Both the position numbers and the translations under genes were made by a program. DNA of 64,000 nucleotides from Porphyromonas sp. COT-290 OH3588. Its GTDB lineage: Bacteria > Bacteroidota > Bacteroidia > Bacteroidales > Porphyromonadaceae. The first letter of the stretch is position 1, and every line of letters begins with the position of its first letter. The notes beneath the pieces were generated by a model, which saw only the letters and a list, made by a program, of their open reading frames with translations, did no database searches and had not been told where the DNA came from. The stretch spans positions 1 to 64,000 of the forward strand of contig NZ_JRFC01000024.1 of NCBI RefSeq assembly GCF_000769075.1. The letters are read 5' to 3'. This document shows positions 10,081 through 62,870 of the stretch, one piece after another.

Positions 10081-10198
10081 AAATCGAAGGACTGATTTTA
10101 TCGGATTGATGGACTAATCCACTGCGATGTGTCCATCAATTCGAGAAAATTGATGGGAAGAAATAGTAGAGAATGAGCTTCAAACATATCAATCTGCA
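10081..10198 (+). repeat. Dispersed element, copy 1 (5' block only)
   Basis: These 118 bases match 13714-13831 except for three adjacent-region differences around 10143-10146. The hairpin stem ATTGATGGAC / GTCCATCAAT with a 16-nt loop is perfect here. The 3' half of the element seen in other copies is missing. The copy lies downstream of the lipoprotein gene at 10380 and in direct orientation with copy 2. Confidence 0.85.
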
Positions 10199-10273
10199 AA
10201 GGCCGTCGCATGGCACTTTGCTCCTTTTAGAGGTTGTGGTTATTAGTCGCTGGGAGAGTAGTTATGCCTACAT

Positions 10274-10327
10274 AAATGACTTCAGCCCCTCACTAGCTTA
10301 GAGGCTAGTGAGGGGCTGAAGTCATTT
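10274..10327 (-). terminator. Strong terminator of the lipoprotein cassette
   Basis: A perfect 24-bp stem (10274-10297 with 10304-10327) with a 6-nt loop, GC-rich in the centre and closed by AAATGAC/GTCATTT. On the minus strand it follows the lipoprotein gene and ends in ATTT. It may work in both directions. Confidence 0.7.
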
Positions 10328-10379
10328 AGTCATATACCTCCAAACCCAACGTTCTGAGGTATGTGATAGCAGACCAGAA

Positions 10380-12977
10380 TTAGCGCTGTTCTGGCCTAGA
10401 CGACATATATTTGTCTGGCTGACCTAGAGGCGTTCGCTCTTTTGCAAAATAGCGATATCGATGAAGATTCATAATCCTTCCTCCTGAGATACGGCCTGCA
10501 GCATCTATAGAAGCTAGCCATCTATAGCCTAAATCATTCCGATTTGCAAGTAGTTCCCAGTCATCGCTCCAAGAATCTGTTTCAACCCTCTTCGTACGAT
10601 AAGGAGCCATAAAAGGAAATACAACACCATCCTTACGCTTCTGGCTGTAATAGGAGGTTGTGGTTGCTACTTTATTAAACTCTTGCTTGTAGTCATATAG
10701 AGTGCCAGAGAAACCAAAACCACTCAATCCAATAGGAGCTGTAGTATCGATAACTTTCTTTTTTTTACCTTGCTGAGTAGTAAACAATTTAACCAATGCC
10801 AAACCATCCTTTACTTGAGTATTGTTACCACTATTGATGTCTAATACATTACTGTGACTGGTGCGTGCAAAATAGCGGAATCTCTTCTGAGCCAGATACC
10901 AAGAATTATATCGAGGATCACGAGGGAAGAAAGTCGGCCACCAAGACTTCAATTCTAGATGTGCGCTTTTTATTTCATAACCAGAAGCTCCGATCAGAAC
11001 AATCTGACCCGCAGCTAATAGCTTCTTTCCATTTTCTTCAAACTTATTGAAATATCTATTGACTGAGCCCACATACGTACCCGCATAAGCACTCTCTTTA
11101 GCTCCATATTCAACAGAGGCTTGATCATTATTAGGTTTGTAAATGGAAACCATATCAGATTCTTTTAGATCTTTAAGAAAGTAGAAATCAGCATCGCTCA
11201 AGTCCTCCAACCTGTCCGTAAATGTATTATCTGTTCTAAGATAACTCATTTTATTTCCATCAAACCTCAAACGAACAAGAGCATACTCATTGAGGTTAAT
11301 ATCTAGCTTAGACGGATTCTGAAGCTCAACTACAGAGTAGTTTTTTCCACTATCCTCTTTATATGTAAGCTCTGTAATCATGAGGTCGGTCGTTATCATG
11401 GCATGCAATCTAGGGGCCTTCCCAAGCTGATGACCAAACGTTGCATTGGTCTGGTGCACGACCACCATAGGTTGAGACCGAACATTTTTCTGTTTAAGAA
11501 AGAGTTCATACTCATCAGAGTCTTTTCCAGGAAATAGCTCTGTGATACTTTTTTTACTTGTGTAATATCCATCTTGATTGTGAGCCGAGTGTGCATTTAT
11601 CCAAAGATAGGTAAATGGCTTAGCTGGAACACTTTTCTTCGGTACAGCCCATTGTATATGATTGGCTACATCTGGGTAGTTGCCAGGAGGGTCATCGTAA
11701 GTACTCTCGGTCCTAGGCGTGGTCAAACCAACCGCCATCCCCACGAATTTTCCTCTGTATTGATCTGATGGTCTATATCCGTAGAATAATGCCATAGATA
11801 TGTCAGACTCTTTATAGGTTTCAGCCATCTTCTGCCCAACTTGTCCAGACCCTGCTGGCTCAAACAAATCGAAGATCTTAGGCATATCCCAAGGGAAACC
11901 CAAAGAGTAATCGTCTGAAGTGGCTTTATACATCTCAAATCCTATATAATTTTTCACTGCTGATTGCTGCCCCTCCCAGGCTGGAATACCAAATCCATGT
12001 GGATCTTTTTCATCGAAAGCCTTCCTGAGATTTTCCTCATCAAGCAAATATCTTCCTTGAAAATCAAAGACATTTGATACGATCCCCGCTCGCCTCATAT
12101 CAATGCCCTCAAACACGTTTGCTACAATCTGATAGTGCAGAAGCAACCCTTGGGGTTTAATGGTAAACGAATCTTCATTCTTGGCCAAACGAAACAGAGT
12201 ATTGGGTTCGTCTGGCACTCTGGGGTCAGTCGAAGGCTTGGCATTTTTTTGAATTTTGAGTTCCTTCCAATTAGAAATAAGAGGGATAGAGTGTCGCCCC
12301 ACCTCTTGACCATACCTTGCGACACGAAAAGTGTCCTTATCACCTGACCCTGCAGTTTGGTTCTTTCCTACAAACTCTACAATGCTACGCCCACTTCTAT
12401 TCAGATTCTCTCTATCTTCCTCTTCTTCTCCGAATACTGCTACCTGTTTGCCACTTTTATCAGTTATAGTCTTGTTGTCCGAGTTCATGATTATCATGGC
12501 ATGCCAAGTCTCTCCCTCCTCAAAGGTGAAAGGCAGATTATTTTTCTTCGGATTAGGCTTGCGAACCCAGATCCTTACCTTAGCTTTGTTAGAAGCCATC
12601 TCTGTTTCTTTGCCAGACCCATCAATTGGAATGACCTTAGCTACAGCCCTTTCTCGGATGAACTTAACATTCCCACCCTTCTCTCTTCTCAAGAGAAGCT
12701 CAACACTATTATCTCGCTTGCGAAATCGGATACGAGGGGAGAAAATTTTCGATTGGTCTCCAGTAGTATTGCTCAACCTATCAAAGCCTACCTGGAAGCC
12801 CTTTAATTGTTCCTCTGGGAGAGCCATCTCGGCCTCAAAAAGGGGGATAAAATCTTTCTCAATATTCTCCTCTGGACTAGGCTTAGAAAGAATATCTTCC
12901 TCCTGTCGAATCTTGTCTTGACAAGCAATGAGGCTTACCCCAAGCAAGCATGTGACAACAAATTTTATCAATTTCAT
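10380..12977 (-). CDS. Large surface lipoprotein, second gene of tiny-protein/lipoprotein cassette 1
   Basis: An 865-residue protein with a lipoprotein signal (LLGVSLIAC lipobox at about residues 11-19). The N-terminal 250 residues resemble fimbrillin-like beta-sandwich lipoproteins of Bacteroidales (VRIWVRKPNP, WHAMIIMNSDN). Around residues 535-580 the stretch VVELQNPSKLDINLNEYAL resembles a lamin-tail-like (LTD/DUF4876-type) domain found in secreted bacterial proteins. The remainder is tyrosine- and tryptophan-rich and not recognised. It lies 24 bases after a 59-codon gene, and the pair is bracketed by two direct repeats. Its size, lipobox and preceding tiny gene parallel the cassette at 59.7-62.2 kb, although the two large proteins are divergent. 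Surface adhesion or a fimbria-tip-like role is only inference. Confidence 0.65.
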   Translation of the reverse strand: MKLIKFVVTCLLGVSLIACQDKIRQEEDILSKPSPEENIEKDFIPLFEAEMALPEEQLKGFQVGFDRLSNTTGDQSKIFSPRIRFRKRDNSVELLLRREKGGNVKFIRERAVAKVIPIDGSGKETEMASNKAKVRIWVRKPNPKKNNLPFTFEEGETWHAMIIMNSDNKTITDKSGKQVAVFGEEEEDRENLNRSGRSIVEFVGKNQTAGSGDKDTFRVARYGQEVGRHSIPLISNWKELKIQKNAKPSTDPRVPDEPNTLFRLAKNEDSFTIKPQGLLLHYQIVANVFEGIDMRRAGIVSNVFDFQGRYLLDEENLRKAFDEKDPHGFGIPAWEGQQSAVKNYIGFEMYKATSDDYSLGFPWDMPKIFDLFEPAGSGQVGQKMAETYKESDISMALFYGYRPSDQYRGKFVGMAVGLTTPRTESTYDDPPGNYPDVANHIQWAVPKKSVPAKPFTYLWINAHSAHNQDGYYTSKKSITELFPGKDSDEYELFLKQKNVRSQPMVVVHQTNATFGHQLGKAPRLHAMITTDLMITELTYKEDSGKNYSVVELQNPSKLDINLNEYALVRLRFDGNKMSYLRTDNTFTDRLEDLSDADFYFLKDLKESDMVSIYKPNNDQASVEYGAKESAYAGTYVGSVNRYFNKFEENGKKLLAAGQIVLIGASGYEIKSAHLELKSWWPTFFPRDPRYNSWYLAQKRFRYFARTSHSNVLDINSGNNTQVKDGLALVKLFTTQQGKKKKVIDTTAPIGLSGFGFSGTLYDYKQEFNKVATTTSYYSQKRKDGVVFPFMAPYRTKRVETDSWSDDWELLANRNDLGYRWLASIDAAGRISGGRIMNLHRYRYFAKERTPLGQPDKYMSSRPEQR

Positions 12978-13001
12978 TCCTGTTTACTTTTAATCATTAC
13001 G

Positions 13002-13181
13002 TTAGTAGAAATCATCTCCATCTATAAAGTTCTCGGTTTCTCCGTCAATAGCAATGATTGAGTCAGAGGCATCTGTAAGCAAGCTTATAGGGGTGTGAAG
13101 ATTGTATAGCTCCACCTCTGGACCTTGATACTGCAACTTCCCTCCGGAGAAAGAGGGATTGATTGTTTTAGCTTTTGTCAT
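13002..13181 (-). CDS. Tiny acidic-tailed protein (59 aa), first gene of cassette 1
   Basis: An open frame of 59 codons (start MTKAKTINPSF, end ETENFIDGDDFY) between a -7 element at 13362-13369 and the lipoprotein gene, 24 bases ahead of the latter. The tail FIDGDDFY closely resembles the tail FIEGDDL of the 40-codon gene at 62055-62177, which sits in the same position before the other large lipoprotein. Both also share a central hydrophobic block (PISLLTDAS versus LQSLLVTLS). Conserved position and tail argue that the frame is real. There is no signal peptide and no known function. It could be a leader peptide, a small chaperone or a peptide precursor. Confidence 0.6.
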   Translation of the reverse strand: MTKAKTINPSFSGGKLQYQGPEVELYNLHTPISLLTDASDSIIAIDGETENFIDGDDFY

Positions 13182-13361
13182 ATTTACTTCTTAATTAGTA
13201 CCATATATTATAATTCTGAAAGATGAAAAATCATAACATGACCGCAAAGCCTATCTCTACTCCATGATCTACAAGAGTGCGGGCCTCATATAGGCACACA
13301 CTCTATAAAATCATCTGATGATAAATTAAGATAGTGCTTTGTATCAGTTTTAATTTGAGCG

Positions 13362-13369
13362 CAAAGATA
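13362..13369 (-). promoter_or_regulatory. -7 element for cassette 1
   Basis: The minus strand reads TATCTTTG. The predicted start near 13355 leaves an untranslated leader of about 170 bases before the tiny gene. No good -33 element is visible. Confidence 0.45.
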
Positions 13370-13396
13370 TTATTTTTTTCGCAAAGTAGCTTTCTA

Positions 13397-13528
13397 TTAT
13401 ACTATTAATTTTATAGCTTGTAGGTTTTTGAAGCCATCGCACCACTCAATTCCTCCCATAGTAGAGGCTTTTTGCAATGGTTTCAACTGAAGGATACTGG
13501 GAACTGGTTCGGTTGGTTTAGTTGCCAT
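13397..13528 (-). CDS. Possible small protein (43 aa), doubtful
   Basis: A 43-codon frame beginning MATKPTEPVPSI and ending LQAIKLIV, upstream of and on the same strand as cassette 1. No clear ribosome-binding site or promoter is visible, and it is not similar to the two tiny cassette proteins. It is listed only because the region otherwise has no gene; it may be chance or a decayed relative. Confidence 0.2.
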   Translation of the reverse strand: MATKPTEPVPSILQLKPLQKASTMGGIEWCDGFKNLQAIKLIV

Positions 13529-13713
13529 ATTGATACTGTCAATAGATATCAATATTTTATTTGTCAGTGATATACCCAACAAGCTTATCCCCAACAGGCA
13601 CACCACTCATACACCTAGTTTTGAGGTTGTTTGACCTATTTTGGGTGGTTTGCTTTCTAGTATATTCTTGCTAAGAGCTTTCGTTTTTCCTTTTTGTGGT
13701 AAAGTGTACTGAA

Positions 13714-14045
13714 AAATCGAAGGACTGATTTTATCGGATTGATGGACTAATCCACTGCGATGTGTCCATCAATTCAGAAAAATTGATGGGAAGAAATAGT
13801 AGAGAATGAGCTTCAAACATATCAATCTGCAGGAAATAGATATCTATATACAACTATATGAACGCATTACAAAAATCCATTCTAACCAACGATCTCCCCT
13901 AGACTAGAGGGTTGGCGCTCCAAACAGGTTAAGCCCCGTATAGAGCTTGCTAGAGAGCCAATACGAGGTCTACACAAGTTATCCACTACTTATGCACATC
14001 ATCCCATCAATCTGCAGAGAGATGGTCTAAAATATAAATTTGGGG
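13714..14045 (+). repeat. Dispersed element, copy 2 (full length)
   Basis: The 5' block (13714-13831) carries the perfect hairpin and is almost identical to copy 1. The middle block (ACGCATTACAAAAATCC) and the 3' block (AGAGCCAATACGAGGTCT, then GGTCTAAAATATAAATT near 14024-14040) align with copies 3 to 6. The element fills the gap between the tiny-gene cassette and the flippase gene. Confidence 0.75.
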
Positions 14046-14054
14046 ATCGGGAAT

Positions 14055-15560
14055 TTAACGCTTATTAAACCTTGCCAGTAGTGGCTTTAGCCCTCCGCTC
14101 GGGAGCTCTAGCTTCAGCACGACAAGTAGGTAAACAAGGCACATCAGCAGGTTGAAGGGTAGAGTTACCCAAACATAGTCGGTCACATACTCGGCCAGTA
14201 GCCATTCGGCTAGAAGCAGGCCTAGAGCTAGCCCTACGTATAGCCCTATCCGCCCCAATTCGTAGCGAATAGGATAGTATCTCTGAGCTAAGAAGTAAGA
14301 GAGTAGTGTAATCAGGCCATTGGACACGACGCTCGCCCAAGCGCAAGCCATATAGCTATAATGCGGTGTACCAAGCACGATGATCAGCACTGTCAAAATG
14401 CAGCCAACCACCGAGAGGATAGCTCCCCAATAGGTTCGGTCTGTGAGCTTGTACCAGAGGGAGAGATTGAAGTAAATACCGAAGAGAAGTTGCCCAGCCA
14501 TTACCCACGGTACCACAGCCAGACCACCTCTGAAGTCGGGCCCTACAAAGTACTGCAGCAACTCAAGGGTAGACATTACCCCAAGGAAGATGAATAGTGT
14601 GAAGATGATGTAATACTTCATCGACACAGCATAGGCAGATTTAGCCGACTCGCCTCCCTCTTTGCTCCGAGCAAAGACGAACGGATCGTAAGCGTAGCGA
14701 AACGCCTGTGTGAAGAGAATCATGATGACGGCAATCTTGTAGCAAGCACTATAGATGCCAAGCTCCGACTCGCCCAGAGCTCTATCGTCAAAGAGGCGAG
14801 GGAATAGTAGTTTATCCGCTTGGTTGTTGAAGCTACCCACCAAGCCAAGCAAGAGAATCGGCCAGCCATAGCTGAGCATACGCCTGAGCAGCCCCCAGTC
14901 GAAGCCATCACAAGCATGCTTAAACGTAGGCGAGAGCATCAAAATCTGGACGATATTGCCAATGAGATTAATCCCCATGATGTAGTACAAGCCATGCCCA
15001 GAGATTTCCCAGCCACCGAAGAGGCTCGGGAAACCCTCCGCCAGCCAAGGCAGGCCGTAGAAAGCCAAAAGGGTCAGCAAAATAGTCAGAAGAATAAAGC
15101 CCATACGTACCCCCATAAACCACCACGGCCTTTGGGCGTAACGCAGGTAGCCGAGCGGTATGGTAGCGAAAGCATCTAGAGCGACAATGCCGAGTAGCAT
15201 CGCCACAAGCCCCTCATCTCCCTCTCTCCCTAGATAGGCCGTGATGGGAGAGAGAAAAATCAAGCCCAAAATCAGAAAGAGAGCCGAAGTCGCACCGATA
15301 GCACGCAATACTGTGGAGTAGACCAAGCTGGGTCGCTCATGCGTCGAAGAGAAGCGGAAAAAGCTCGTCTCCATACCATAGGTCAGGACGATGAGCAGCA
15401 GTGCTATCACGGCATAGAGATTCGTCATCACACCAAACTCGCCCGTAAAGAGGACACGAGAATAAAGTGCCGTAAGCAGCCAATTAAGAAACCGCCCAAC
15501 CACAGAGCTAAGTCCGTAGACGGCGGTATCCTTAATAAGAGATTTGAGGGGGTTGGCCAT
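14055..15560 (-). CDS. Polysaccharide flippase (Wzx/MATE-like, MOP superfamily)
   Basis: A 501-residue integral membrane protein with about 14 hydrophobic segments. The N-terminus (SLIKDTAVYGLSSVVGRFLNW) is characteristic of lipid-linked oligosaccharide flippases that move O-antigen or capsule repeat units across the inner membrane. The ATG at 15560 is used because the extended start is a TTG only two codons upstream. The gene lies 24 bases after ruvB and 30 bases after an alpha/beta hydrolase gene plus ruvB in a three-gene unit on one strand. The transported glycan cannot be told from sequence. Confidence 0.85.
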   Translation of the reverse strand: MANPLKSLIKDTAVYGLSSVVGRFLNWLLTALYSRVLFTGEFGVMTNLYAVIALLLIVLTYGMETSFFRFSSTHERPSLVYSTVLRAIGATSALFLILGLIFLSPITAYLGREGDEGLVAMLLGIVALDAFATIPLGYLRYAQRPWWFMGVRMGFILLTILLTLLAFYGLPWLAEGFPSLFGGWEISGHGLYYIMGINLIGNIVQILMLSPTFKHACDGFDWGLLRRMLSYGWPILLLGLVGSFNNQADKLLFPRLFDDRALGESELGIYSACYKIAVIMILFTQAFRYAYDPFVFARSKEGGESAKSAYAVSMKYYIIFTLFIFLGVMSTLELLQYFVGPDFRGGLAVVPWVMAGQLLFGIYFNLSLWYKLTDRTYWGAILSVVGCILTVLIIVLGTPHYSYMACAWASVVSNGLITLLSYFLAQRYYPIRYELGRIGLYVGLALGLLLAEWLLAEYVTDYVWVTLPFNLLMCLVYLLVVLKLELPSGGLKPLLARFNKR

Positions 15561-15584
15561 ACTCAAGTTTATAGTACACAGATA

Positions 15585-16601: not shown

Positions 16602-16607
16602 CGAGGG

Positions 16608-17774: not shown

Positions 17775-17803
17775 ACTTTGTCCAATCATCAATAATGATT
17801 AAA

Positions 17804-17811
17804 CAAAGGTA
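17804..17811 (-). promoter_or_regulatory. -7 element for the hydrolase-ruvB-flippase unit
   Basis: The minus strand reads TACCTTTG, 30 bases before the hydrolase ATG. A terminator for secA lies just upstream, so this is probably the sole promoter of the unit. Confidence 0.5.
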
Positions 17812-17860
17812 CAAAAAACACCAACACAGCTAAGATGACGAGGCGACATGGGCGAGAACA

Positions 17861-17904
17861 AAAAAGGATGAGGCAGAACCATAGTTCCACCTCATCCTTT
17901 TTAG
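17861..17904 (-). terminator. secA terminator
   Basis: The stem is AAAAGGATGAGG with its complement CCTCATCCTTTT. The inner arm (AGAAC/GTTC) is imperfect, and flanking T-runs occur on both sides. It lies 19 bases after the secA stop on the minus strand. Confidence 0.8.
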
Positions 17905-17922
17905 ATAAATGCATTCGCTAGG

Positions 17923-26606: not shown

Positions 26607-26997
26607 CAACAAACCCTATCAATGAAAATAGGTTATCTCCACTGAAACACAGAGGGCCGTATTAAATACCGATCATCACAATCCTTCTAGCTACGCCATC
26701 GTTGTCAGTGCCGATAGCGATGTCTTGCTTAATCACTCCTGAATCCTGACATTACCCTCAACGACGAACTCATCGCTCCGCCCAATCCGTCGCCTTTCGA
26801 TTGGCTATTTTCGTCTTGTAGCAACGCAGTGAGCTGCGTTGAAATTTATCCACTCTTGTGCACTCGCTTCGCCCGAGGGGCGATGATGCTACAATCTATG
26901 GGGATCGACTTTGCACGTTTTTGGTTAAAGGGTGTAAACGGATTTGTACCCAATTGGACGAACCGAAGGCACATTTTGACGCAGCTATTCGCCTAGG
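26607..26997. other. Gene-free segment with small hairpins
   Basis: No credible gene on either strand. A short perfect hairpin (CAACGCAG/CTGCGTTG, 26822-26841) and another (TCGCCC/GGGCGA, near 26869) are present. Nothing else is recognised between the protease promoter and the dispersed element. Confidence 0.5.
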
Positions 26998-27300
26998 ATA
27001 GCAAATTGATGGGAGCATTTTCTGAGATTGTAGGACTAATCCAGCGCGGTGTGTCCACACATTTGGAGAGATTAATGGGAAGAAACTCCAAAATAATCGC
27101 CTTGCTTAGATGAAACTGCCCCAAAAACACCAACACACATCTGATTATCAATCCAATACAAAAAGCCCGTTTTAAGCACCTCTTTTCATGCGTCTGGGAA
27201 CTAAGTGCCAAAATGAGGCCAAACGCCGTACAGAGCCTCCTAGGAGGCAAATACGAGGTCTAGCATATCTTATCCAAAAGAGCCCTTATCTGCAAGGAAA
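26998..27300 (+). repeat. Dispersed element, copy 3
   Basis: The 5' block includes AAATTGATGGGA, then GGACTAATCCAGCGCGGTGT and ATTAATGGGAAGAAA. The hairpin stem is weaker here but keeps GGAC/GTCC and the 16-nt loop. The middle block (GTTTTAAGCACCTCTTTT, GGAACTAAGTGCCAAAATGA) and the 3' block with the palindrome GCCTCCTAGGAGGC and CAAATACGAGGTCTA are clear. It lies upstream of the SusC/SusD promoter. Confidence 0.75.
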
Positions 27301-27529
27301 CATGATCAATCTTCGCCAAAGATGTAAACTTTCATAAAAGAAAATCCCACAAAAGATCTCAGGTAGAGTAAATCGAGAGCTAGGGTACCCCTTATAGTCC
27401 TCTCCCTACTACCCTCCCAATTTTTCTTTCATGAGGCATAGAAACGGTACAACCAACAAGTCACGACCCTGCACAATTAAGGAGCAGTAATTTATACAGA
27501 TCTTGCTGTTTTTATCAAACGGAAGTATT

Positions 27530-32853: not shown

Positions 32854-32861
32854 TATCTTTG
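32854..32861 (+). promoter_or_regulatory. -7 element of the cobalamin locus
   Basis: TATCTTTG immediately before the riboswitch. The predicted start near 32868 coincides with the 5' edge of the aptamer. Confidence 0.6.
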
Positions 32862-32867
32862 CCCCAG

Positions 32868-33056
32868 ATATGGTTAGTCCTATGGAGCTCTTGCGCTCTC
32901 ATGGACAAGGGAAACAGGTGTAAGCCCTGTGCAGTCGCGCTGCCGTAATTCTCCTGATCTCGAAGGTCAGAGGATACCCTCTCAGATGCCACTGCTGACT
33001 TAGCTCAGTGGGAAGGCGAGAGTGCGTTAGAGATAAGCCGGAAGACCTGCCATGTC
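32868..33056 (+). ncRNA. Cobalamin (B12) riboswitch
   Basis: Several conserved aptamer blocks are found in the right order: GGGAAACAGGTGTAAGCCC with GCAGTCGCGCTGCCGTAA (core and P4-P6), GCCACTG, GTGGGAAGGCGAG, and the B12-box-like AAGCCGGAAGACCTGCC near 33035-33051. It lies directly behind a promoter and upstream of the propeller-lipoprotein, BtuB and BtuG genes, so it should shut these off when adenosyl- or other cobalamin is plentiful. The expression platform is not obvious near the aptamer; see the hairpin at 33419-33455. Confidence 0.9.
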
Positions 33057-33418
33057 GGTCGATATTTTGTGCTTTCGCGGTATAGAGCATAAGGTTAGTA
33101 TTGAACCATCTCTAGAGGTTAAGCCCTCAACAAGAGGTTACGTTCGCTCATCAGAAGTAGGTAGTAAGCCCCCTATACCATATTATATTATATATAGGGA
33201 TCTCGAGCAACCACCAACTCCCAAACCTTACGCACGCACCTCTCGAATCCACAGTATATATCGACTCTCTTACAAGTGACCAACCTTGCTTGTGTGTTTA
33301 TATGAGCCTAAGCGCTACTAGCACGCACGGGGCATAGTCGCCGATTTGTCAAAAAAAGTGGAGTGGTATCACAGTTCCGCTATCTGGAGCCAAGCGATGT
33401 CATGACTTATACGAATAA
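33057..33418 (+). other. Long leader between the B12 aptamer and the first gene
   Basis: About 360 bases with no convincing gene. It contains several short palindromic stretches and an AT-only run (ATATTATATTATATATA near 33182). If transcription starts at 32868, the leader to the ATG at 33487 is about 620 bases, unusually long. Confidence 0.4.
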
Positions 33419-46214: not shown

Positions 46215-46317
46215 CATCTCGGCAAGGTCATTCTTGATCGAAATAAGTAAAAAAGTGCAAACGAACTATCCTCAAGAGAAACCCTCTCCAAGGGCCAGTT
46301 TGGAGCATTTTACCTAC

Positions 46318-46665
46318 ATCTTCGGCCAAATCGAAGGGAAGACTTTTTCGTTTCTATGGGCTCATCTACCAAGATGTGTGCACCAATCTGAGAGAATTGA
46401 TGGGAAGGAATGGCAAACAATAAGCCCCTAAATCTATAAAATCGGCTAAGAGAAGAATCTATACACATAGAGAACAGCGACTTACAAAACAAGCGTTTTA
46501 AGCGACTGTTTTCACTAGACTGAGTCGAAGTACACCAGCGCAGTCCGTCGCCATGTAGCGCCTCCTAGAGGGCAAATATGAGGCCTATACTTTTTCGTCT
46601 AAGCAACGAATACTTCCCCACCAACATTCTGAAAATTGGTCTAAAATATAAATTCAGGCAACGGA
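46318..46665 (+). repeat. Dispersed element, copy 4
   Basis: The 5' block is diverged but recognisable: the loop TCATCTACCAAGATGT has the same 16-nt length and the shared GATGT end, followed by AGAATTGATGGGAAGGAAT. The middle block (ACAAGCGTTTTAAGCGAC) and the 3' block (CGCCTCCTAGAGGGCAAAT, TTGGTCTAAAATATAAATT) align well with copies 2, 3 and 6. The stem pairing is largely lost in this copy. Confidence 0.65.
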
Positions 46666-52267: not shown

Positions 52268-52602
52268 ACTGCCATTTTAGATTTTAGCTCAGATTTCAGC
52301 ATGTTGATGGGAACACATCTAAACAACTAGAAAAAAACACCAGACTGCGTATTTCCCCCCTAGAAAGCGCTACACGGCACCTGATCTCTTTGGCGCACCT
52401 CTCCCCTAGTAGCATGAAAACAACCGTCCAAAACGCCAGAAACACAAATGACTGCTAAACAATAATATAAATTAAATATCTGGGCGATCTCATAGATTTT
52501 CGGCTTATCGCTTGGCACTTCTTCCCATCAATTTTACTCGATTGGTGGGCACACCTTGGCTAATCAGTCCTCCAATGCCTCAAGATCTTCCCACCAATTT
52601 GC
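52268..52602 (-). repeat. Dispersed element, copy 5 (opposite strand)
   Basis: Read on the minus strand, the 5' block shows two AATTG(A/G)TGGGAAGA motifs flanking a hairpin with stem ATTGGAGGAC against GCCCACCAAT and a 16-nt loop TGATTAGCCAAGGTGT. The middle part carries AGCAGTCATTTGTG and TGCGCCAAAGAGATCAGG. The 3' block (CTTTCTAGGGGGGAAATACG, GAGCTAAAATCTAAAATGG) ends near 52270. It is the only copy in this orientation. The region 52148-52860 holds no gene. Confidence 0.7.
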
Positions 52603-52775
52603 ATCAAGTATACAACCAAGCTCCTCATAGGCGTCCTCTTACCTACCGCAATACGAGGGTTAATCCTTTACACTATTTAACTAAAAAGATGAAAAACGTA
52701 GCTCTCCCGTCAATCATATCCGCAGTGGATTGATCTTTACTGCTTAGACTCCTTGGCATTTACCCCTATCCGCTG

Positions 52776-54353: not shown

Positions 54354-54373
54354 CCGACAGAAGACAAACCAAA

Positions 54374-55825: not shown

Positions 55826-55850
55826 TCGACCCCAATTATGGACTATAAAT

Positions 55851-55879
55851 TAAGCTCTCGTAGGATCTACGGGAGCTTA
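55851..55879 (+). terminator. Terminator of the tRNA nucleotidyltransferase gene
   Basis: A near-perfect stem TAAGCTCTCGTAG with CTACGGGAGCTTA around a 3-nt loop, 26 bases after the stop. The T-run is short. Confidence 0.6.
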
Positions 55880-55962
55880 TTGCATACTACGATAGCCTAG
55901 AGTAACAAGCAGCTTGCTTGACAAACTGAATGCTAAAGTGGTGAAAATCGGGGATTTTGGCG

Positions 55963-55970
55963 TACCTTTG
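55963..55970 (+). promoter_or_regulatory. -7 element for the RNase R gene
   Basis: TACCTTTG. The predicted start near 55977 lies downstream of the GTG that would give the longest frame, which argues for the internal ATG at 56069. Confidence 0.55.
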
Positions 55971-56068
55971 TGGTGCCGTCCAATGGGATGTCGCCTTATT
56001 TGCATATTTCTAGGGGAGGCATCAGACCCATTAAGGGGCGTCATTTAGACACAAGACATAGAATTTAT

Positions 56069-58294
56069 ATGAGTAAAAAGAAAACACCCGTGAGGGGTCA
56101 AACGAAAGATAAAAAGACGAAGCACAAAGTAAGTTCACGGAAAACAGCCACAACCACCTCCACCCGATCTACTAGACGAGGCATTACAAATCTAGAAATC
56201 GAGGAGGCTATCCGCCGTTTGTTTGAGCAAGAACCTAATAAGGTATTCAACTACAAACAGGTTTGCTACCTATTTGGTCAGACCTCTATGGCACAGAAGC
56301 GACAGATCGTATCTGTGCTGGAGTCGCTCGTGATGTTTGGTTTACTTGAGGAGGTCGAGATGGGGCGCTATCGCCTCGCCGCACTTGGACAAACACTCGA
56401 GGGTCAATTTACTTGTCGCTCGGGTAGATACTACTTCGAGCCAGACAATGGTAGCGAGCCAATCCCTCTTAGCGAGCGAGCAGCAGGGAGAGCCCTGCAC
56501 GGAGATCGTGTGCGCATAAAAATCTCTACGCCCAAGGGCCGCCGCCGAGAGAGCGAAGTCATTATCGATGAGATTCTAGAGCGTAGCGAGCAGACCTATG
56601 TAGGCAACTTGCAGGTCAGCCGTGGCCATGCCTTCTTCGTCAGCGAAAGCCGAGAGCTACGCCAAGACATTTACATTCCTATCGACCAAATGAATGGAGC
56701 ACACAAGGGCGACAAAGTGATCGTGCGCATACTCGGTTGGGACAAGCGAGCCAAAAATCCGCATGGGACCGTTGTTGATGTGCTAGGAAAAGCTGGGGAC
56801 AACAATGCCGAGATGCACGCCATACTTGCAGAGTTTGGCTTGCCATATAGCTATCCCGAGGAGGTAGAGCGTGCTGCCGATGAGCTAACCGACGAGATTA
56901 CCCCCGAGGAGCTAGCACGCCGAGAGGACTTCCGTAGCGTTACGACCTTCACGATCGACCCACGAGATGCCAAGGACTTCGATGATGCGCTCTCTATCCG
57001 TCACCTAGACAACGGCTTAGTAGAGGTTGGGGTACACATCGCCGACGTGAGCTACTTCGTTCGTCCCGGTAGCAAGATAGATGATGAGGCCTACAAGCGA
57101 GCTACGAGTATCTATCTCGTAGACCGTACTATCCCGATGCTGCCCGAGCGTCTATGCAATCTGCTCTGCTCACTCCGCCCAGACGAAGACAAGTATAGCT
57201 ACAGTTGTGTCTTCACGATGAGCGCCGAGGCAGAGATTATAGACTCTCGCATTACACGAGGTGTAATCCGAAGCAACCGTCGCTTCACCTACGAAGAGGC
57301 TCAAGAGATGATCCAAGGAGCGGAAGGGGACTTCAAAGCGGAGGTACTAGAGCTCAATACACTAGCGCAGAAACTCAGGGCTAGACGCTTCGAGCATGGA
57401 AGTATCGCCTTCGATCGCCCAGAGGTTCGCTTCGAGATTGATGAGATGGGACGACCCGTATCTGTCTACATCAAGGAGAGCCTAGAGGCACATCAATTGA
57501 TTGAGGAGTTTATGCTACTAGCCAATAAGACCGTAGCTCTCGCTATTGGGCGACCAGAGTCTGGCAATGCTAAAACGTTCGTCTACCGAGTGCACGACCA
57601 GCCAGACCAAGAGAAGATGACTCAGCTGGCCGAGGTAGCAGGACGTCTTGGCTATCGCCTACGAGCGCAGGGCTCCAACCGGGCCATTAGCGACAGCCTC
57701 AATAAGCTCCTCGCCGATGCCAAGGGTAAGCCCGAGAATAATCTGCTCTCGACTATTGCTATTCGCACGATGGCCAAAGCCAAATACACGACTGAGAATA
57801 TCGGTCACTACGGTTTGTCATTCGACTTCTACACCCACTTTACCTCGCCCATTCGTCGCTACCCTGACCTCATGGTGCATCGTTTGCTTACTCGTTACTT
57901 AGTCGAGGGTGGCAAGTCCGCCGACAAAAAGACCACAGAGGAGGCCTGCGAACATTCGTCTGCCATGGAGCAGCTCGCCGCTCAAGCCGAGCGTTCGTCC
58001 ATTCGCTACAAGCAGGTGGAGTACATGAGTCGCTTCTTGGGTGAGGAGTTCGACGGCGTGATCTCTGGTGTAACCGAATGGGGTCTGTACGTAGAGCTTG
58101 ACGAAAACAAGTGCGAGGGCATGATCCCCACAAGGGATCTTACAGACGGCTATTACGAGCTGGACGAAGATTCCTTCACACTCATCGGCCGCCACACAAA
58201 GCGTCGCTTTACTTTAGGAGATAAGGTACGCATTCAGGTAGTCCAAGCCAATCTGGAGCGTAAGCAGCTAGACTTTGCTCTAGTGGAGGAGTAA
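56069..58294 (+). CDS. rnr: Ribonuclease R
   Basis: A protein of 741 residues, a processive 3'-5' exoribonuclease able to unwind structured RNA. A lysine-rich N-terminus (MSKKKTPVRG...) is followed by a winged-helix segment, cold-shock domains, the RNB catalytic domain with its four aspartates (DPRDAKDFDDAL), and a C-terminal S1 domain (GVISGVTEWGLYVEL). FTSPIRRYPDLMVHRLL is the family signature. The ATG at 56069 is chosen because the basic MSKKK start follows it and the promoter sits upstream. It has its own terminator. Confidence 0.95.
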   Translation: MSKKKTPVRGQTKDKKTKHKVSSRKTATTTSTRSTRRGITNLEIEEAIRRLFEQEPNKVFNYKQVCYLFGQTSMAQKRQIVSVLESLVMFGLLEEVEMGRYRLAALGQTLEGQFTCRSGRYYFEPDNGSEPIPLSERAAGRALHGDRVRIKISTPKGRRRESEVIIDEILERSEQTYVGNLQVSRGHAFFVSESRELRQDIYIPIDQMNGAHKGDKVIVRILGWDKRAKNPHGTVVDVLGKAGDNNAEMHAILAEFGLPYSYPEEVERAADELTDEITPEELARREDFRSVTTFTIDPRDAKDFDDALSIRHLDNGLVEVGVHIADVSYFVRPGSKIDDEAYKRATSIYLVDRTIPMLPERLCNLLCSLRPDEDKYSYSCVFTMSAEAEIIDSRITRGVIRSNRRFTYEEAQEMIQGAEGDFKAEVLELNTLAQKLRARRFEHGSIAFDRPEVRFEIDEMGRPVSVYIKESLEAHQLIEEFMLLANKTVALAIGRPESGNAKTFVYRVHDQPDQEKMTQLAEVAGRLGYRLRAQGSNRAISDSLNKLLADAKGKPENNLLSTIAIRTMAKAKYTTENIGHYGLSFDFYTHFTSPIRRYPDLMVHRLLTRYLVEGGKSADKKTTEEACEHSSAMEQLAAQAERSSIRYKQVEYMSRFLGEEFDGVISGVTEWGLYVELDENKCEGMIPTRDLTDGYYELDEDSFTLIGRHTKRRFTLGDKVRIQVVQANLERKQLDFALVEE

Positions 58295-58340
58295 TACAGT
58301 GCCAGAGCTGGGGAGCACAACCCCATTTAGCACAAGAGAG

Positions 58341-58374
58341 AGGGGACAGACAAGGGATATTTTGTCTATCCCCT
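58341..58374 (+). terminator. rnr terminator
   Basis: The stem AGGGGACAGACAA pairs with TTGTCTATCCCCT (one mismatch) around an 8-nt loop, 46 bases after the rnr stop. Confidence 0.65.
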
Positions 58375-58506
58375 CCTGCGTATTTATAGACCCATGGCCT
58401 CGGCCCTATCTCTTCTGTGCACCGATCTCCAGAGGCAAACGGTTACTAGGCCTACCATCGTAGGTCTATGCGCAGATATTATGAGTAAGAAATACAAACA
58501 GTTTAG

Positions 58507-58514
58507 TAACTTTG
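58507..58514 (+). promoter_or_regulatory. -7 element for the GH130 gene
   Basis: TAACTTTG, about 78 bases before the ATG at 58592. Confidence 0.45.
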
Positions 58515-58591
58515 CGTACAAATGAACGGAGGAACTCCCAAGAGCAACACCTCCATTTAGTTTGATATTTGGTATAATACAGGTAAAATCA

Positions 58592-59590
58592 ATGAGTAAA
58601 CTTAAGATCGTTGGGCAGGCAATGCCCGACATGCCTTGGGAGGATCGTCCCGCAGGCTCCAAAGAGGTTATGTGGCGCTACTCTGCCAACCCAATCATTC
58701 CTCGTGATTTGCTCCCCACCTCCAACAGTATTTTCAATAGTGCTGTGGTACGCTTCGGCGAGGGCTATGCAGGGGTGTTCCGCTGCGACGACACCAACAG
58801 ACGTATGCGTCTGCATGTGGGTTTCAGTGACGATGCGATCAACTGGAATATTAACCCCGAGCCACTCAAGTTTGAGTGCGACAACAAGGAGATCGGCGAA
58901 TGGGTGTATGGCTACGACCCTCGTGTCGTTTTCATCGAAGACCGCTACTATGTAACTTGGTGCAATGGCTACCATGGCCCAACGATTGGGGTAGCTTATA
59001 CCTTCGACTTCAAGACATTCCACCAGCTAGAGAATGCGTTCTTGCCATTTAACCGCAACGGCGTACTCTTCCCTCGCAAAATCAATGGCAACTTCGCCAT
59101 GCTTAGCCGTCCTAGTGACAATGGGCACACTCCATTTGGCGACATCTTCTATAGCGAATCACCTGAGCTTGAGTACTGGGGACGCCATCGCCACGTGATG
59201 AGCCCAGCTCCATTTGAGGATAGCGCTTGGCAGTGCACCAAGATCGGTGCGGGTCCTATCCCCATCGAGACTAGCGAAGGCTGGCTACTCATCTACCACG
59301 GTGTACTCAATAGCTGCAACGGCTTCGTTTATGCTTTCGGCTCGGCTATCCTAGATCTAGACGAGCCATGGAAAGTTAAGTTCCGTTCTGGTCCGTACCT
59401 CATCTCTCCACGTGAGATCTATGAGTGCATGGGCGATGTACCCAACGTAACATTCCCATGCGCTGCACTACACGACGCCGAGACTGGTCGCATCGCAGTG
59501 TACTATGGTTGCGCAGACACGGTGACGGGTCTTGCCTTCGGTTACATCGACGAGATCGTAGAGTTCACCAAGAAGCACTCGATCATCTAG
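58592..59590 (+). CDS. GH130 family glycoside phosphorylase/hydrolase
   Basis: A 332-residue cytoplasmic-looking five-bladed propeller enzyme (no signal peptide). GH130 landmarks include [39 protein letters not shown] (with the conserved catalytic-region Asp), [19 protein letters not shown] and the C-terminal [14 protein letters not shown]. The family mostly phosphorolyses or hydrolyses beta-mannosides, such as mannosyl-N-acetylglucosamine or mannobiose. The ATG at 58592 is preferred to a TTG at 58562. It is a single-gene unit ended by a 50-bp palindrome. Confidence 0.9.
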
Positions 59591-59609
59591 TAGCAGGCTA
59601 CCAAAGCCC

Positions 59610-59659
59610 CCAAATAATATCGCCACAAGTCTTGCAAGACTTGTGGCGATATTATTTGG
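59610..59659. terminator. 50-bp perfect palindrome, likely bidirectional terminator
   Basis: 25 bases and their exact complement with no spacer (centre between 59634 and 59635), beginning CCAAATAATATCGCC. It ends in TTATTTGG and lies between the convergent GH130 and lipoprotein genes. Confidence 0.75.
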
Positions 59660-59736
59660 TAGAGCCTCTTGGCCGCACTGATACTCTGCGATGAGTTATC
59701 AGGCTACTAGGGCTTCTTGCCCAGAGGTGGTGGGCA

Positions 59737-61977
59737 CTACTCTAGACGCCTGCGGCCATTGAGGAGATCATCTTTCTTAAACAATCTTACAGCCACACTT
59801 CTATTTCTTACTCCGAGACTCGTAAGAAAATTCACATGAAAATCCGACTCTGACTTTACTGGATAGAAAGATACACATCGGTACATACGAGATCCCTCAA
59901 CATCATGGCTGGAGAGCGACATATAGTACCCATCTAGCCCGGGGTTTAGCTCCGTTACATCTCGAGAGGAGTTTTTGGTCTGATTTTCGTAGTTAACTAG
60001 AGAGCCCGGAGCCGACAGTGTTCTATGTATGCTATGAGCCCCCTTCCAAAAAAGTTCGCCTTGATTAGCCAAATCCTGAAGCGTCATATTAGCTCCATTC
60101 TCTCCAAGATATACGACATCAATCACTAGAGCAGTGTTCTTGGAGTTTTGTCCTTCCCAGCATACATCCTCTCCAAGCACTGTATATCGGTAGGCACAGA
60201 GCATCGTATTGTCTGGGGCTGGAGTATGGAACTTCCTCTCTCCCTCAACGCTAAGATCAGTCGTGCACGTGTTATGCTTACCAAATCTCAGAGCATAGAC
60301 GACCTTCTTATTTGAAGCCGTCTTTCGGGGAGACGAATACTGGCTTGTATAGGTCTGACGCAAAACATCACAGATCTGCTCACCTTCACCAGTCGTCATA
60401 AACTCCTCAACAGAAGCAGGGTTCTCATTTTTCACAAAATGAATGGTGTCAGCCCTTGAGCCCGGAAAAGCTCCCCACCAATCCTCAATCCGTGGAATGC
60501 GGTATCTAGTATCTAGTCGTGGGGTTTCTAGGCAGGTACCTCCGTTATGGTCGAATATCCGATCTGAGATTTTCTCCGTAGAGAGGTTCCTACTTTGAGG
60601 ATTAAATATAGGATCATACGTCCCCGAGGCAACATACCAATTGTAGTATCCCGACTCATCATTCTTATGCGACCCGGCAAATCTCAGCAGACCAGAGTAT
60701 CGTTTGGACTGAGAGAGGTTCCCCCCTCCACTTGAATTGTTGGTATTAGGGATATCCACCACACCTGCCTCTCCACCTTGCAGGTTGTACTCGGTGAGGT
60801 ACTCTATGGGTAGAGCTACACGCTTCGTAATAGTTGTCGTCAGATGATGAACAGCATGGTTCTGAACCTGAGTATTCGGCTTCGGCATATAGGAGGTAAA
60901 GTACAGATGCGTGTAGTCGTGATGCCACTGATCACCACCTTTCGCCGTGCCTCTCACCAAAATTCTAGTCTTGAATTCTTCGGTTTCATCAGGCGAGATT
61001 GGATTATTTCCCGTTCCCATCACCCATGTATAGTAGGTCTGACTATACGATGTAGTCGAATTCTTTGTGCCAGCCTCGGCAGGGATCGTTTCGGGCTGAT
61101 TGAGCTTGTACTCCATGACTGGGTAGCAGCCTGCTCCACCCTTCCCCGTCCATACGGGCAGAGGCGTCGATTCGGGGTTATTAGCAAAACTAAATGTGCC
61201 TTGGTCTGTATAGGCCGAAGACCAAATCTGGAAGCCGGTCATCGTAAACTTCTTCTCCTCCGCAGGAGTATCCATTTGGGACACAACCCCCTTGACAAGT
61301 TCATTCCCAAACTTATATCCAATTACCGAGCCGAGAGGCTTGAATTTGACTTTGTGACTCGCCTTTCCATGTGCAACTATAGTCGAGAACTCTCGTTTGC
61401 TCGTTTCGAGCTGTACCCAAGGGAAAGCATAGGGGACCTCTAGCTTGACCTGATCACCAATATGGGATACACCAGTCAAGGTACGCGTAGGTTCAAATGT
61501 GATCTTTTTCCCCTCTAGCTTCCCTCCGATAATCCCCGACACATACCAGCGTCTGCTAGGATTATTAAAGACTGCTCCTTCGTTATCGAGGTGTATAGAG
61601 TTCGCCTCTAGGTTCGCTGTGTTAGTAGTTAGCTTGAGCGTTCGGCTGCTGGCTAGGTAAGTCCACTTGAGTGTCTTAACAGCCAAGATTCCGTCATTGC
61701 TACAAATAGCGGTATGCACATCAACAAGATCTCCATCTTGAAGTCTTGGACGGGGAAGACTATTCCTATTGCCCTGCTCTAAATAGAGAGGTAGCCCTTT
61801 GAGGCCCTCCAGATTAATCTCAAGATCTAACGCTACTGATGAGCTGCCACCACTCCCGAGCTCTACACTCGGCTCTCTCTGATTTTCCTTATCCTTGCAA
61901 GAAAAAAGAAGCCCCATACCCAATGCCAAAAGCATAAGGCGATAGGACAATGTTTGATTAAATAGTCTACGATACAT
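59737..61977 (-). CDS. Large surface lipoprotein, second gene of tiny-protein/lipoprotein cassette 2
   Basis: A protein of 746 residues with a lipoprotein signal (LALGMGLLFSC). The N-terminal half is a fimbrillin-like beta-sandwich (LDLEINLEGLKGL, LKLTTNTANLE, VAYPFWVQ-type strands). The C-terminal third has a lectin-like segment recalling the FISUMP/C-type-lectin-like fold: YYNWYVASGTYDP, TRYRIPRIEDWWGAFPG, and GYYMSLSSHDVEGSRMYRCVSF. It is therefore a possible fimbria-tip or adhesive lipoprotein. I start at the ATG at 61977 because a GAGAGAA ribosome-binding site and the lipoprotein signal follow; the frame is open to 62034. The tiny gene at 62055-62177 lies upstream. Confidence 0.65.
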   Translation of the reverse strand: MYRRLFNQTLSYRLMLLALGMGLLFSCKDKENQREPSVELGSGGSSSVALDLEINLEGLKGLPLYLEQGNRNSLPRPRLQDGDLVDVHTAICSNDGILAVKTLKWTYLASSRTLKLTTNTANLEANSIHLDNEGAVFNNPSRRWYVSGIIGGKLEGKKITFEPTRTLTGVSHIGDQVKLEVPYAFPWVQLETSKREFSTIVAHGKASHKVKFKPLGSVIGYKFGNELVKGVVSQMDTPAEEKKFTMTGFQIWSSAYTDQGTFSFANNPESTPLPVWTGKGGAGCYPVMEYKLNQPETIPAEAGTKNSTTSYSQTYYTWVMGTGNNPISPDETEEFKTRILVRGTAKGGDQWHHDYTHLYFTSYMPKPNTQVQNHAVHHLTTTITKRVALPIEYLTEYNLQGGEAGVVDIPNTNNSSGGGNLSQSKRYSGLLRFAGSHKNDESGYYNWYVASGTYDPIFNPQSRNLSTEKISDRIFDHNGGTCLETPRLDTRYRIPRIEDWWGAFPGSRADTIHFVKNENPASVEEFMTTGEGEQICDVLRQTYTSQYSSPRKTASNKKVVYALRFGKHNTCTTDLSVEGERKFHTPAPDNTMLCAYRYTVLGEDVCWEGQNSKNTALVIDVVYLGENGANMTLQDLANQGELFWKGAHSIHRTLSAPGSLVNYENQTKNSSRDVTELNPGLDGYYMSLSSHDVEGSRMYRCVSFYPVKSESDFHVNFLTSLGVRNRSVAVRLFKKDDLLNGRRRLE

Positions 61978-62054
61978 ATTTCTCTCGCTCTTTTTGCGAT
62001 ATATTTCAGTTTCCATTCTTCTCCAATTAAACATACAGATGCAACTCTCTGATC

Positions 62055-62177
62055 CTAGAGGTCATCTCCTTCTATAAAGTCTTCAATACATCCTTCCACC
62101 GAAAGAGTCACTAAAAGACTTTGAAGATTAGAGAACTCTAGGATCTCCCCCTGAGGCTTTACATACTCTTCTTTCAT
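62055..62177 (-). CDS. Tiny acidic-tailed protein (40 aa), first gene of cassette 2
   Basis: A 40-codon frame (MKEEYVKPQGEILEFS to CIEDFIEGDDL). Its tail FIEGDDL and its position before a large lipoprotein mirror the 59-codon gene at 13002-13181. The opening (KPxGEILEFSNLQSLL) also resembles small proteins common in Bacteroidales surface-protein loci. No signal peptide; function unknown. Confidence 0.6.
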   Translation of the reverse strand: MKEEYVKPQGEILEFSNLQSLLVTLSVEGCIEDFIEGDDL

Positions 62178-62222
62178 AATTTTTGAAAAATACCTAGTTA
62201 AACGAAAATGAAATAATTTTTC

Positions 62223-62230
62223 GCAAATTA
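62223..62230 (-). promoter_or_regulatory. Possible -7 element for cassette 2
   Basis: The minus strand reads TTAATTTG, a near match to TAnnTTTG, about 46 bases before the tiny gene. Confidence 0.3.
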
Positions 62231-62530
62231 ACAGACATTTTAGAATTAATCAAAATAAAACTATTGGAAATAAATTTTCACCAATGATCAGTTATATTGC
62301 TTGAAACATATTTTTTCGTAAATATTGTCTGAAAATCTATTATACAGAATGGGGGGCATTCGCAAAAACGCACAATTTACATGATACTTTCTCTAGCCGA
62401 AATCACCATTTTTATGATATAGTTCTTCTAGGAAAGCCCTCACCTTTCATGTTTTTGTTAAATACTGTAAATAATCTTACGTAGAATTTGTGCGAAGAGT
62501 CTAATGATCTACCAAGACTAGTGGGCTATG

Positions 62531-62870
62531 ACAGAAAAATTGAAGGACTAATCATTTTTGATTAGAGGACTAATCCGTTCTGGTGTGTCCACTAATCCGA
62601 CAAAATGAATGGGAAGAAATGGCCGAGCAGGCGACAAGAAGGCATAGAGTTACCCCCAACACACATCTCATACACCTGACCATTAGGAACTTACAGAAAA
62701 CCATTTTAGGCGGTTATTTTGGTTCGGCTCGGAACTAAGCGCCAAAACGAGGTCAAACTCAATCTAGAGCCTCCCAGAGGCCAAATACGCAGTCTAATAT
62801 TTTTCGGTCTTGTCCAAATCGATTTTCCCATCAACAATCGAAAAGTTGGTCTAAAATCTAAAATCCCGCC
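62531..62870 (+). repeat. Dispersed element, copy 6 (full length)
   Basis: The 5' block has stem ATTAGAGGAC against GTCCACTAAT around the loop TAATCCGTTCTGGTGT, then AATGAATGGGAAGAAAT. Compared with copies 1 and 2, two base pairs are changed on both sides of the stem, keeping pairing. The middle (ATTTTAGGCGGTTATTTT, GGAACTAAGCGCCAAAACGA) and the 3' block (GCCTCCCAGAGGC, CAAATACG, GTTGGTCTAAAATCTAAAAT) are complete. The rest of 62231-63140 shows no gene. Confidence 0.8.

Follow-up and report, generated by a model that had tools for sequence, protein, structure and literature searches.

The window analysed here is the whole 64-kb stretch of Porphyromonas DNA. It carries six copies of a dispersed repeat (Table 1). 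Ten of its ORFs were scanned, and the seven with Pfam matches differ in function. Copy 4 has a histidine kinase gene (minus strand) on one side and an Na/Ca exchanger gene (plus strand) on the other. All six copies were found at about the positions given in the preliminary description, and chance is excluded because their profile E-values range from 4e-31 (partial copy 1) to 6e-86. The extent of about 330 bp given there is too short. The element spans about 420 nt in a profile of copies from the same genome, and four of the window copies (3-6) start 71-93 nt further 5'. Copies 1 and 2 are 97% identical over 119 nt.

The 5' box of copy 6, GTTAAnnnnTGTAAA, is also found at 26924 (plus strand, copy 3) and 52681 (minus strand, copy 5). 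All three matches in the window are located at 5' ends of the element, for a shuffled expectation of 0.05 per strand; no exact match is present in the remaining window copies (1, 2 and 4). At the Rfam gathering threshold, the whole window contains a cobalamin riboswitch, located elsewhere, and no match to the element copies. Copy 2 had no match among plasmid records in a distant blastn search, nor did the exact element pattern in IMG/VR.

Table 1 Features of the repeat in the 64-kb window
Feature	Position	Strand	Description
Copy 1	10019..10197	+	5' half only, profile positions 12-211; E=4e-31
Copy 2	13706..14041	+	Profile positions 87-422; E=3e-62; 5' box region unrecognisable
Copy 3	26910..27330	+	Full element, divergent genes either side; E=1e-82
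Copy 4	46247..46654	+	Profile positions 15-421; E=9e-73
Copy 5	52276..52695	-	Full element; E=2e-80
Copy 6	62451..62862	+	Profile positions 9-419; E=6e-86
5' box GTTAAnnnnTGTAAA of copy 6	62457..62471	+	Exact match
Array region of copy 6	62535..62624	+	Quasi-palindromic sites at ~22-bp pitch; includes the hairpin first described
3' conserved block of copy 6	62698..62801	+	Region of model R2

A genome-wide family of nearly fixed length

Six copies had been counted, but the family is genome-wide, with at least 145 copies; copy totals in this work are minimum values, since 150 of 772 and 150 of 2457 candidates were scored. The copies of this genome scoring above 120 bits number 142. At least 90% of the profile is covered by 107 of them, of which 103 match its length within 2 nt. 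When the sister species is included, the aligned span is within 2 nt of the profile length in 178 of the 193 matches above 120 bits, the sister copies being less rigid (33 of 42 well-covered copies within 2 nt). Mean identity is about 56% (42 copies of this genome). The array segment is present twice in copies L163 and L178, as though sites had been gained in blocks. Besides these two, only three clearly partial matches score below 120 bits, and two of them are located at contig ends. As previously described, the copies share no common reading frame, with an average of 6.6 to 8.8 stops per copy in each of the six frames, and no transposase was found in the copies examined. Of the 193 copies, 20 overlap a mechanically called ORF of at least 100 aa.

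The 3' half of the element is also conserved, which counts against the array reading proposed below, and it gives a weak 9.5-bp signal.

Base pairing and helical phasing within the element

Selection on a base-paired, covarying hairpin had been proposed for the 5' part of the element. Over the 142 copies of this genome, covariation is lacking at all 12 stem pairs (MI z -1.5 to 2.0) and the two arms vary independently. In the sister species the stem is broken: in 43 of 50 copies just 6-8 of the 12 pairs can form, and five pairs are mismatched in most copies. One stem pair reaches z 4.6 in these 50 copies, yet a T-T mismatch is the second most frequent state of this pair. Among the 45 strongest covarying column pairs, those at least 80% complementary number 0 in this genome, 12 in the sister copies and 2 when both are pooled, and none of the 12 belongs to the proposed stem. 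In addition, APC-corrected covariation revealed no helix, and alignment folding of sub-alignments A2 and A3 gave 6 and 3 pairs only. Overall, the first interpretation stands in part: the element is dispersed, ordered and non-coding, has no transposase in the copies examined and has the appearance of being selected, but selection on a paired hairpin finds no support.

A modest pairing signal was nevertheless obtained with the first 34 copies, where 84.2% of the stem cells are paired versus 81.7% after shuffling (0 of 500 shuffles as high) and the stem covariation score is reached in 3 of 500 shuffles. For 34 copies, RNAalifold gives -53 on the plus strand and -37 on the minus strand, as compared to -7.9 +/- 3.2 for ten column-shuffled alignments. 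G-T cells in the stem (194) outnumber A-C cells (117). This signal, the plus-strand fold, the G-T excess and the nearly fixed length are in line with a family of structured small RNAs transcribed from the 5' box, the reading implied by the preliminary description. We nevertheless hold this reading to be very improbable, given the lack of stem covariation in this genome, the broken sister stem and the lack of an Rfam match to the window copies. Moreover, TAnnTTTG, which we take to be the Bacteroidetes -7 promoter motif, has a density of just 0.40-0.46 per kb within the element.

The palindromes of the element are better read as DNA half-sites than as hairpin arms. In the 5' half, sites follow each other at a 22-bp pitch and A/T tracts are phased at about 11 bp. 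The A/T-tract power at 11 bp in this half is 7.6 versus 1.75 for shuffled copies, and 205 repeats are counted at lag 22 in the elements of this genome, for a median of 22 per lag; the z-scores of the phasing are inflated because the copies are related. In the sister copies, clear phasing is confined to the first ~110 nt. The conservation profile of the element has no clear 10-11-bp period.

Placement on the chromosome and in relatives

On average, one copy is found about every 14 kb. The coefficient of variation (CV) of the spacing is 0.55, as compared to 0.97 +/- 0.09 under random placement, and 1 of 100 intervals is shorter than 4 kb where 24 are expected (minimum 12 in 2000 simulations), keeping in mind that undetected copies would add intervals to this test. 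Both neighbouring genes could be called for 166 copies of this genome and the sister; 95 of these copies lie in divergent, 68 in tandem and 3 in convergent gaps, whereas 9 of 82 gaps are convergent and 9 of 82 divergent in background stretches. In tandem gaps the two orientations of the element occur 38 and 30 times. Between the element and the adjacent gene, TAnnTTTG occurs in 117 of 144 cases and in 104 of 130. The copies are thus placed on the far side of promoters, leaving space for one on each flank.

Such a promoter-side position, together with dyad sites at helical pitch, would suit operator arrays of a global transcription regulator, whose dimer would bind beside each target promoter so that the copies would mark a large regulon. 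However, neither the mutual exclusion below 4 kb nor the near-equal orientations in tandem gaps is predicted by a regulon, and the seven Pfam-matched ORFs of the window have differing functions. We consider this explanation rather unlikely.

A flanking gene is common to an element of this genome and to a sister element at 37 of 51 sister elements, the chance level for shared flanking genes being an assumed one. Both sides match in 2 of these 37 sites, and only the opposite side in 9. We had expected orthologous elements to resemble each other more closely than paralogues do. This is not so, since the similarity at same-side shared sites is 0.516 versus 0.500 for all pairs (median rank 44 of 142). 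We take this as saturation of unconstrained positions, the alternative being that copies are replaced while their sites stay fixed.

Intergenic repeats at lag 22 and/or 44 were observed in seven other Porphyromonadaceae genomes (weakly in one), with palindromes that differ among the genomes where these were examined. They are absent in six of seven genomes from other families, and in E. coli. In genome G011, which has a different array, 4 of 140 intervals are shorter than 4 kb versus 31.5 expected (minimum 17 in 5000 simulations); the spacing CV of 0.85 is inside the simulated range, and over 200 kb, with placement restricted to non-convergent gaps, the spacing test gives P=0.03. A sample from genome G025 contains units of ~22-23 bp around ATTTGTATACAAAT, which, by resemblance, we take to be putative BrickBuilt units.

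Mobile elements, proposed docking sites and known systems

The possibility, raised earlier, of a catalogued MITE fails on both terminal inverted repeats (TIR) and target-site duplications (TSD). In the 50-nt ends, the best 15-mer match is 9.27 versus 9.18 for shuffled ends, and 0 of 141 copies have at least 13 of 15 positions matching (1 for shuffled ends). A clear TSD is absent at all end offsets tried, with at most 5 of 141 4-mers and 3 of 141 5-mers above expectation. Searched genome-wide, the Y1 transposase (PF01797) is absent from this genome (G000) and the sister (G023); of the 8 genomes searched 6 lack it, G011 has one match and G020 two. A REP/REPIN system, in which a RAYT (Y1) transposase moves the palindromes, would share with the present element species-specific palindromes in intergenic arrays. 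This system is set aside because the Y1 transposase is lacking, which largely refutes it for this genome, and we regard it as extremely improbable.

The numerous, dispersed and mostly intergenic copies could also derive from a domesticated or ageing MITE family with target immunity and a preference for the promoter side, the spacing being a relic of insertion exclusion. The recent 119-nt duplicate shared by copies 1 and 2 and the 9 sites matching on the opposite side only would fit, as would shared-site elements no more alike than random pairs, which copy replacement would also give. Also in line with this origin is BrickBuilt of P. gingivalis, described as a MITE with 23-nt arrays, IS5-like TIRs and some TSDs (PMC4596501). 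On the other hand, the lack of TIR and TSD, the near-fixed length with few partial copies, the absence of a Y1 transposase and the same pitch and exclusion in the different arrays of G011 all argue against this origin, which we judge unlikely.

Even spacing, and the different sequences that relatives carry at the same 22-letter rhythm, point to candidate docking sites at which a chromosome-organising protein would bind, and less to a jumping gene or an RNA hairpin. Our best explanation, held at somewhat short of even confidence, is that of selected, putatively protein-bound arrays with a role in chromosome organisation or promoter insulation. Each copy would serve as a stretch of DNA, almost constant in length, on which protein docks, as opposed to a gene, an RNA or a recent transposon. 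Its 5' half would form an array of dyad sites, the 22-bp pitch corresponding to two turns of slightly underwound B-DNA. Because the dyads are set at this pitch on an A/T background phased at ~11 bp, dimers of a DNA-binding protein could load cooperatively on one face and may bend or wrap the DNA. Placed outboard of promoters, ~14 kb apart, and many of them at sites common to the sister species, the copies would probably be nodes of chromosome organisation, such as a nucleoid anchor, a supercoil-domain boundary or a promoter insulator; negative supercoils would gather upstream of genes, where these nodes stand. The same pitch with other palindromes in family relatives is as if protein specificity and arrays changed together.

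A wider proposal, possible but doubtful, is a Porphyromonadaceae-wide lattice of protein-bound dyad arrays with a 22-bp pitch, ~10-15 kb apart on the promoter side of genes, whose sequence would be rewritten in concert in each species. The binding protein and its ~150 sites would co-evolve, and therefore spacing and pitch would be conserved and sequence would not. If true, this lattice would be a new kind of bacterial chromosome-organising system. Bacterial chromosomes comprise supercoil domains of about 10 kb, and, to our knowledge, fixed sequence boundaries of these domains are hardly known. The element family, with its near-fixed length, the mutual distance of its copies, their avoidance of convergent gene ends and its recurrence with a different sequence in relatives, provides a concrete, deletable candidate for such a boundary. 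It could also offer a bacterial example of joint change in a protein and ~150 of its sites.

Among systems known in general, plasmid iterons also have a ~22-bp pitch and are cooperative protein sites two helical turns apart. However, they are direct repeats at an origin, whereas the present sites are dyads at ~150 chromosomal places.

The BIME-2/REP arrays of E. coli are strong gyrase sites that, according to their description, might contribute to genome organisation (PMC6379681). They resemble the present element as intergenic palindrome arrays, and the gyrase motif also has a ~10-bp phased composition. In contrast, their unit and sequence are different, and the enrichment of gyrase sites is on the downstream side of transcribed operons (PMC6379681). 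The present elements are upstream of genes and avoid convergent gaps.

BrickBuilt (P. gingivalis; Klein et al. 2015, PMC4596501; also treated in PMC5771137 and PMC10969869) is likewise intergenic and dispersed, has tandem 23-nt units and comes from the same genus. Its units are framed by a leader and a tail. However, its 19 copies are very variable in length (84-991 nt), whereas the present element numbers at least 145 copies, almost uniform in length. Its IS5-like TIRs and some TSDs also set it apart, by description, from the present element, which has neither. The parts of PMC4596501 consulted mention neither regular spacing nor a pitch common to the genus, and among the open-licence PMC papers listed by our searches, none names regularly spaced or genus-wide arrays in its title or abstract opening.

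Extent, copy number and length of the element

The six copies that the preliminary description had placed in the window are all present where it located them, with E-values from 4e-31 to 6e-86 against a many-copy profile. Its ordered element holds, and its 5' end had been set too short: conserved sequence continues upstream to a box, GTTAAnnnnTGTAAA, which occurs three times in the window, every match at a copy's 5' end. The 3' limit lies near AAAATATAAAT, and copy 1 lacks the 3' half. Judging from their sequence, the 5' half of copies 1 and 2 was probably converted or duplicated recently.

Coordinates of individual features.
Feature	Location	Observation
Copies 1 and 2, 5' part	window 10075-10198 vs 13708-13831	96-97% identity over ~120 nt, divergent beyond
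Cobalamin riboswitch, RF00174	window 32854-33068 +	75.9 bits
Quasi-palindrome at array centre	L013 1314-1403	inverted vs other copies (by eye)
CTnDOT-like genes TraG, TraJ, TraM, PcfJ	C6 507000-533000 (L235, L236)	in longest element-free stretch of contig 6

The element is far from limited to six copies: a model of the 3' block built on sequence alone finds at least 145 in the genome (2.29 Mb, 48 contigs), with 150 of 772 candidates scored. Length was analysed on these copies together with part of those of the sister genome (G023), and 193 matches exceeded 120 bits (142 own, 51 sister). Of the 422-position profile, 107 own matches span 90% or more and 137 span 75% or more; 103 of these 107 differ by at most 2 nt from the profile length; in the sister, coverage reaches 90% in 42/51, of which 33 stay within 2 nt. 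Taken together, 178/193 aligned spans lie within 2 nt. The alignment stops before position 400 in 27 own matches, in agreement with the variation of 3' ends noted on visual inspection. Copies share on average 56% pairwise identity (42 own copies) or 67% (14 sister copies), and the scarcity of length changes at this divergence argues for selection on the element as a unit. As initially described, there is no shared reading frame, stops being present in all six frames; a coding gene is not supported.

The 19 matches at or below 120 bits, excluded from the set, comprise two extra array segments, three partial copies (window copy 1, L069, and two at contig ends, L232 and L211) and, for most of the remainder, antisense palindrome matches within copies already counted. 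The extra segments belong to L163 and L178, two own copies in which the array segment (the 22-bp-pitch sites of the 5' half) is doubled, so that site number can apparently grow as a unit. Template switching at a palindrome would produce an inversion like that in L013.

The palindrome and conservation in the sister

A covarying hairpin had been proposed for the 5' palindrome. In a 34-copy set the stem signal was modest, and RNAalifold favoured the plus strand. With 142 own copies, the covariation vanishes: none of the 12 stem pairs covaries (MI z -1.5 to 2.0), and G-T cells outnumber A-C cells (194 vs 117). In the sister (50 copies), the z of 4.6 seen at one stem pair comes with no complementary change. 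Five of the pairs are mismatches in the majority of copies, and 6-8 of the 12 pairs are formed in 43/50. Among the top 45 covarying column pairs, those at least 80% complementary number 0 (own), 12 (sister) and 2 (both together), none of them a hairpin-stem pair. Base-paired RNA is thus not supported; the palindrome makes more sense as a set of DNA half-sites, given a stem that does not covary and has mismatched pairs in the sister.

An exact pattern searched in 84,980 species genomes, from which the own genome is possibly absent, gave 24 matches, all in one MAG, 'Porphyromonadaceae bacterium isolate S17M_Sa_46', which we equate with G023. Model R2 (3' conserved block) found 146 own matches, 73 in G023 and a marginal one in G011 (E=0.04) among 26 genus genomes at E up to 0.1; R1, under stricter filters, found the same two genomes only among 61. 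A flanking gene (≥80% identity) is shared with an own element by 37/51 sister elements, against an assumed chance level: 28 on the same side and 9 on the opposite side only. Both sides match in 2 of the 28, a count limited by the short flanks, and own element L071 is paired with two sister elements. The flanking DNA compared is 84-95% identical, and elements at shared sites are hardly closer in sequence than random pairs, a pattern that may reflect saturation wherever positions are free to change, with selection maintaining the conserved ones. The sister consensus is distinct as a group, and some own copies carry similar variants.

Gene context and spacing

With both neighbours called (166 own and sister copies; one neighbour is uncalled in the other 27 of 193), 95 copies lie in divergent, 68 in tandem and 3 in convergent gaps; in background stretches, 9/82 gaps are convergent and 9/82 divergent. 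Mechanically called ORFs of 100 aa or more overlap 20/193 copies. TAnnTTTG, which we take to be the promoter motif of Bacteroidetes, stands between element and gene in 117/144 and 104/130 cases, seven- to eightfold denser there than antisense; its density within the element is 0.40-0.46 per kb.

The copies also keep apart. On eight contigs with 108 copies and 100 intervals, random placement would give a spacing CV of 0.97 ± 0.09 and 24 intervals below 4 kb; the observed values are 0.55 and 1. All 121 intervals average 14.4 kb, with a minimum of 3.4 kb. Gap content was inspected for the longest gap of contig 6 (68 kb), which holds no element copy: its later part contains a CTnDOT-like conjugative transposon, and its earlier part looks like ordinary genes.

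Helical pitch across the family and parallels

In the 5' half of own copies, A/T-tract power at 11 bp is 7.6 vs 1.75 in dinucleotide shuffles, phasing z-values being inflated because the copies are related; in sister copies, phasing is clear in the first ~110 nt only. Diverged forms were sought in 200 kb each of two relatives, G003 and G011, where neither R1 nor R2, nor the profile at the single orthologous locus tested, found the element. Both have linked intergenic repeat sets of their own (18/49 and 16/54 segments, respectively), including 22-bp-pitch palindrome arrays whose units resemble GACCAnTAnTGGTC in G003 and CTGAGGGATATCCCTCAG in G011; another relative, G020, carries TCCACGTGGA in 21-22-bp units. 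For exact 6-mer repeats, lags 22 and 44 are within the top three in 9/9 sets, the top lag being 21 in G020 and 41 in G025. Lag-22 segments number 1, 1, 1, 0, 0 and 0 in other families of the order, 3 vs 0.7 in G059 (also another family) and 0 in E. coli, in smaller outgroup samples of 40-50 kb.

Intergenic segments with exact 6-mer repeats at lag 22 in Porphyromonadaceae.
Genome	Lag 22	Mean, other lags	Further lag
G003	22	5.1	
G011	18	6.7	
G025	7	1.9	
G020	8	2.3	17 at lag 21
G022	7	3.4	12 at lag 44
G031	6	2.0	
G030	3	1.0	
Own window alone	2	1.4	5 at lag 44

The G011 chromosome (one contig) holds at least 140 distinct arrays (150 of 2457 candidates scored). On these, 4 intervals fall below 4 kb, where 31.5 are expected and none of 5000 simulations gave fewer than 17; the spacing CV of 0.85 is inside the simulated range; with placement limited to non-convergent gaps in 200 kb, spacing gives P=0.03. 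Convergent gaps hold 1/17 arrays in G011, where they make up 13/71 background gaps, and 1/12 arrays in G003, where they make up 9/56.

Other repeats were seen alongside. G003 has a MITE-like intergenic family (L290-L299; up to ~560-600 bp, 80-92% identity, internal inverted repeats) with several copies in 200 kb. G031, of another genus of the family, has intergenic lag-22 and lag-44 repeats (L325-L329); segment-vs-segment blastn gave just two two-segment matches, one tRNA-like. In G022 (L320-L324), ~190-bp repeats start with TGAGACTGTTGCAAAAGTC, with similar ones in G020 (L317, L319); this start resembles the TIR given for MITEPgRS/ISPg4 in PMC4596501.

For the element itself, a MITE is not supported, with no TIR and no TSD, and neither is a REPIN. 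Its near-constant length, its helical pitch, its position on the promoter side irrespective of orientation and the mutual exclusion of copies fit a putative protein-bound DNA platform, chromosome-organising or insulating; the protein, its binding mode and this role are what we infer. Parallels are the BIME-2/REP arrays that serve as gyrase sites (PMC6379681), the phased A-tracts involved in compacting the nucleoid (PMC3940949) and BrickBuilt (PMC4596501), which the G025 intergenic units resemble.
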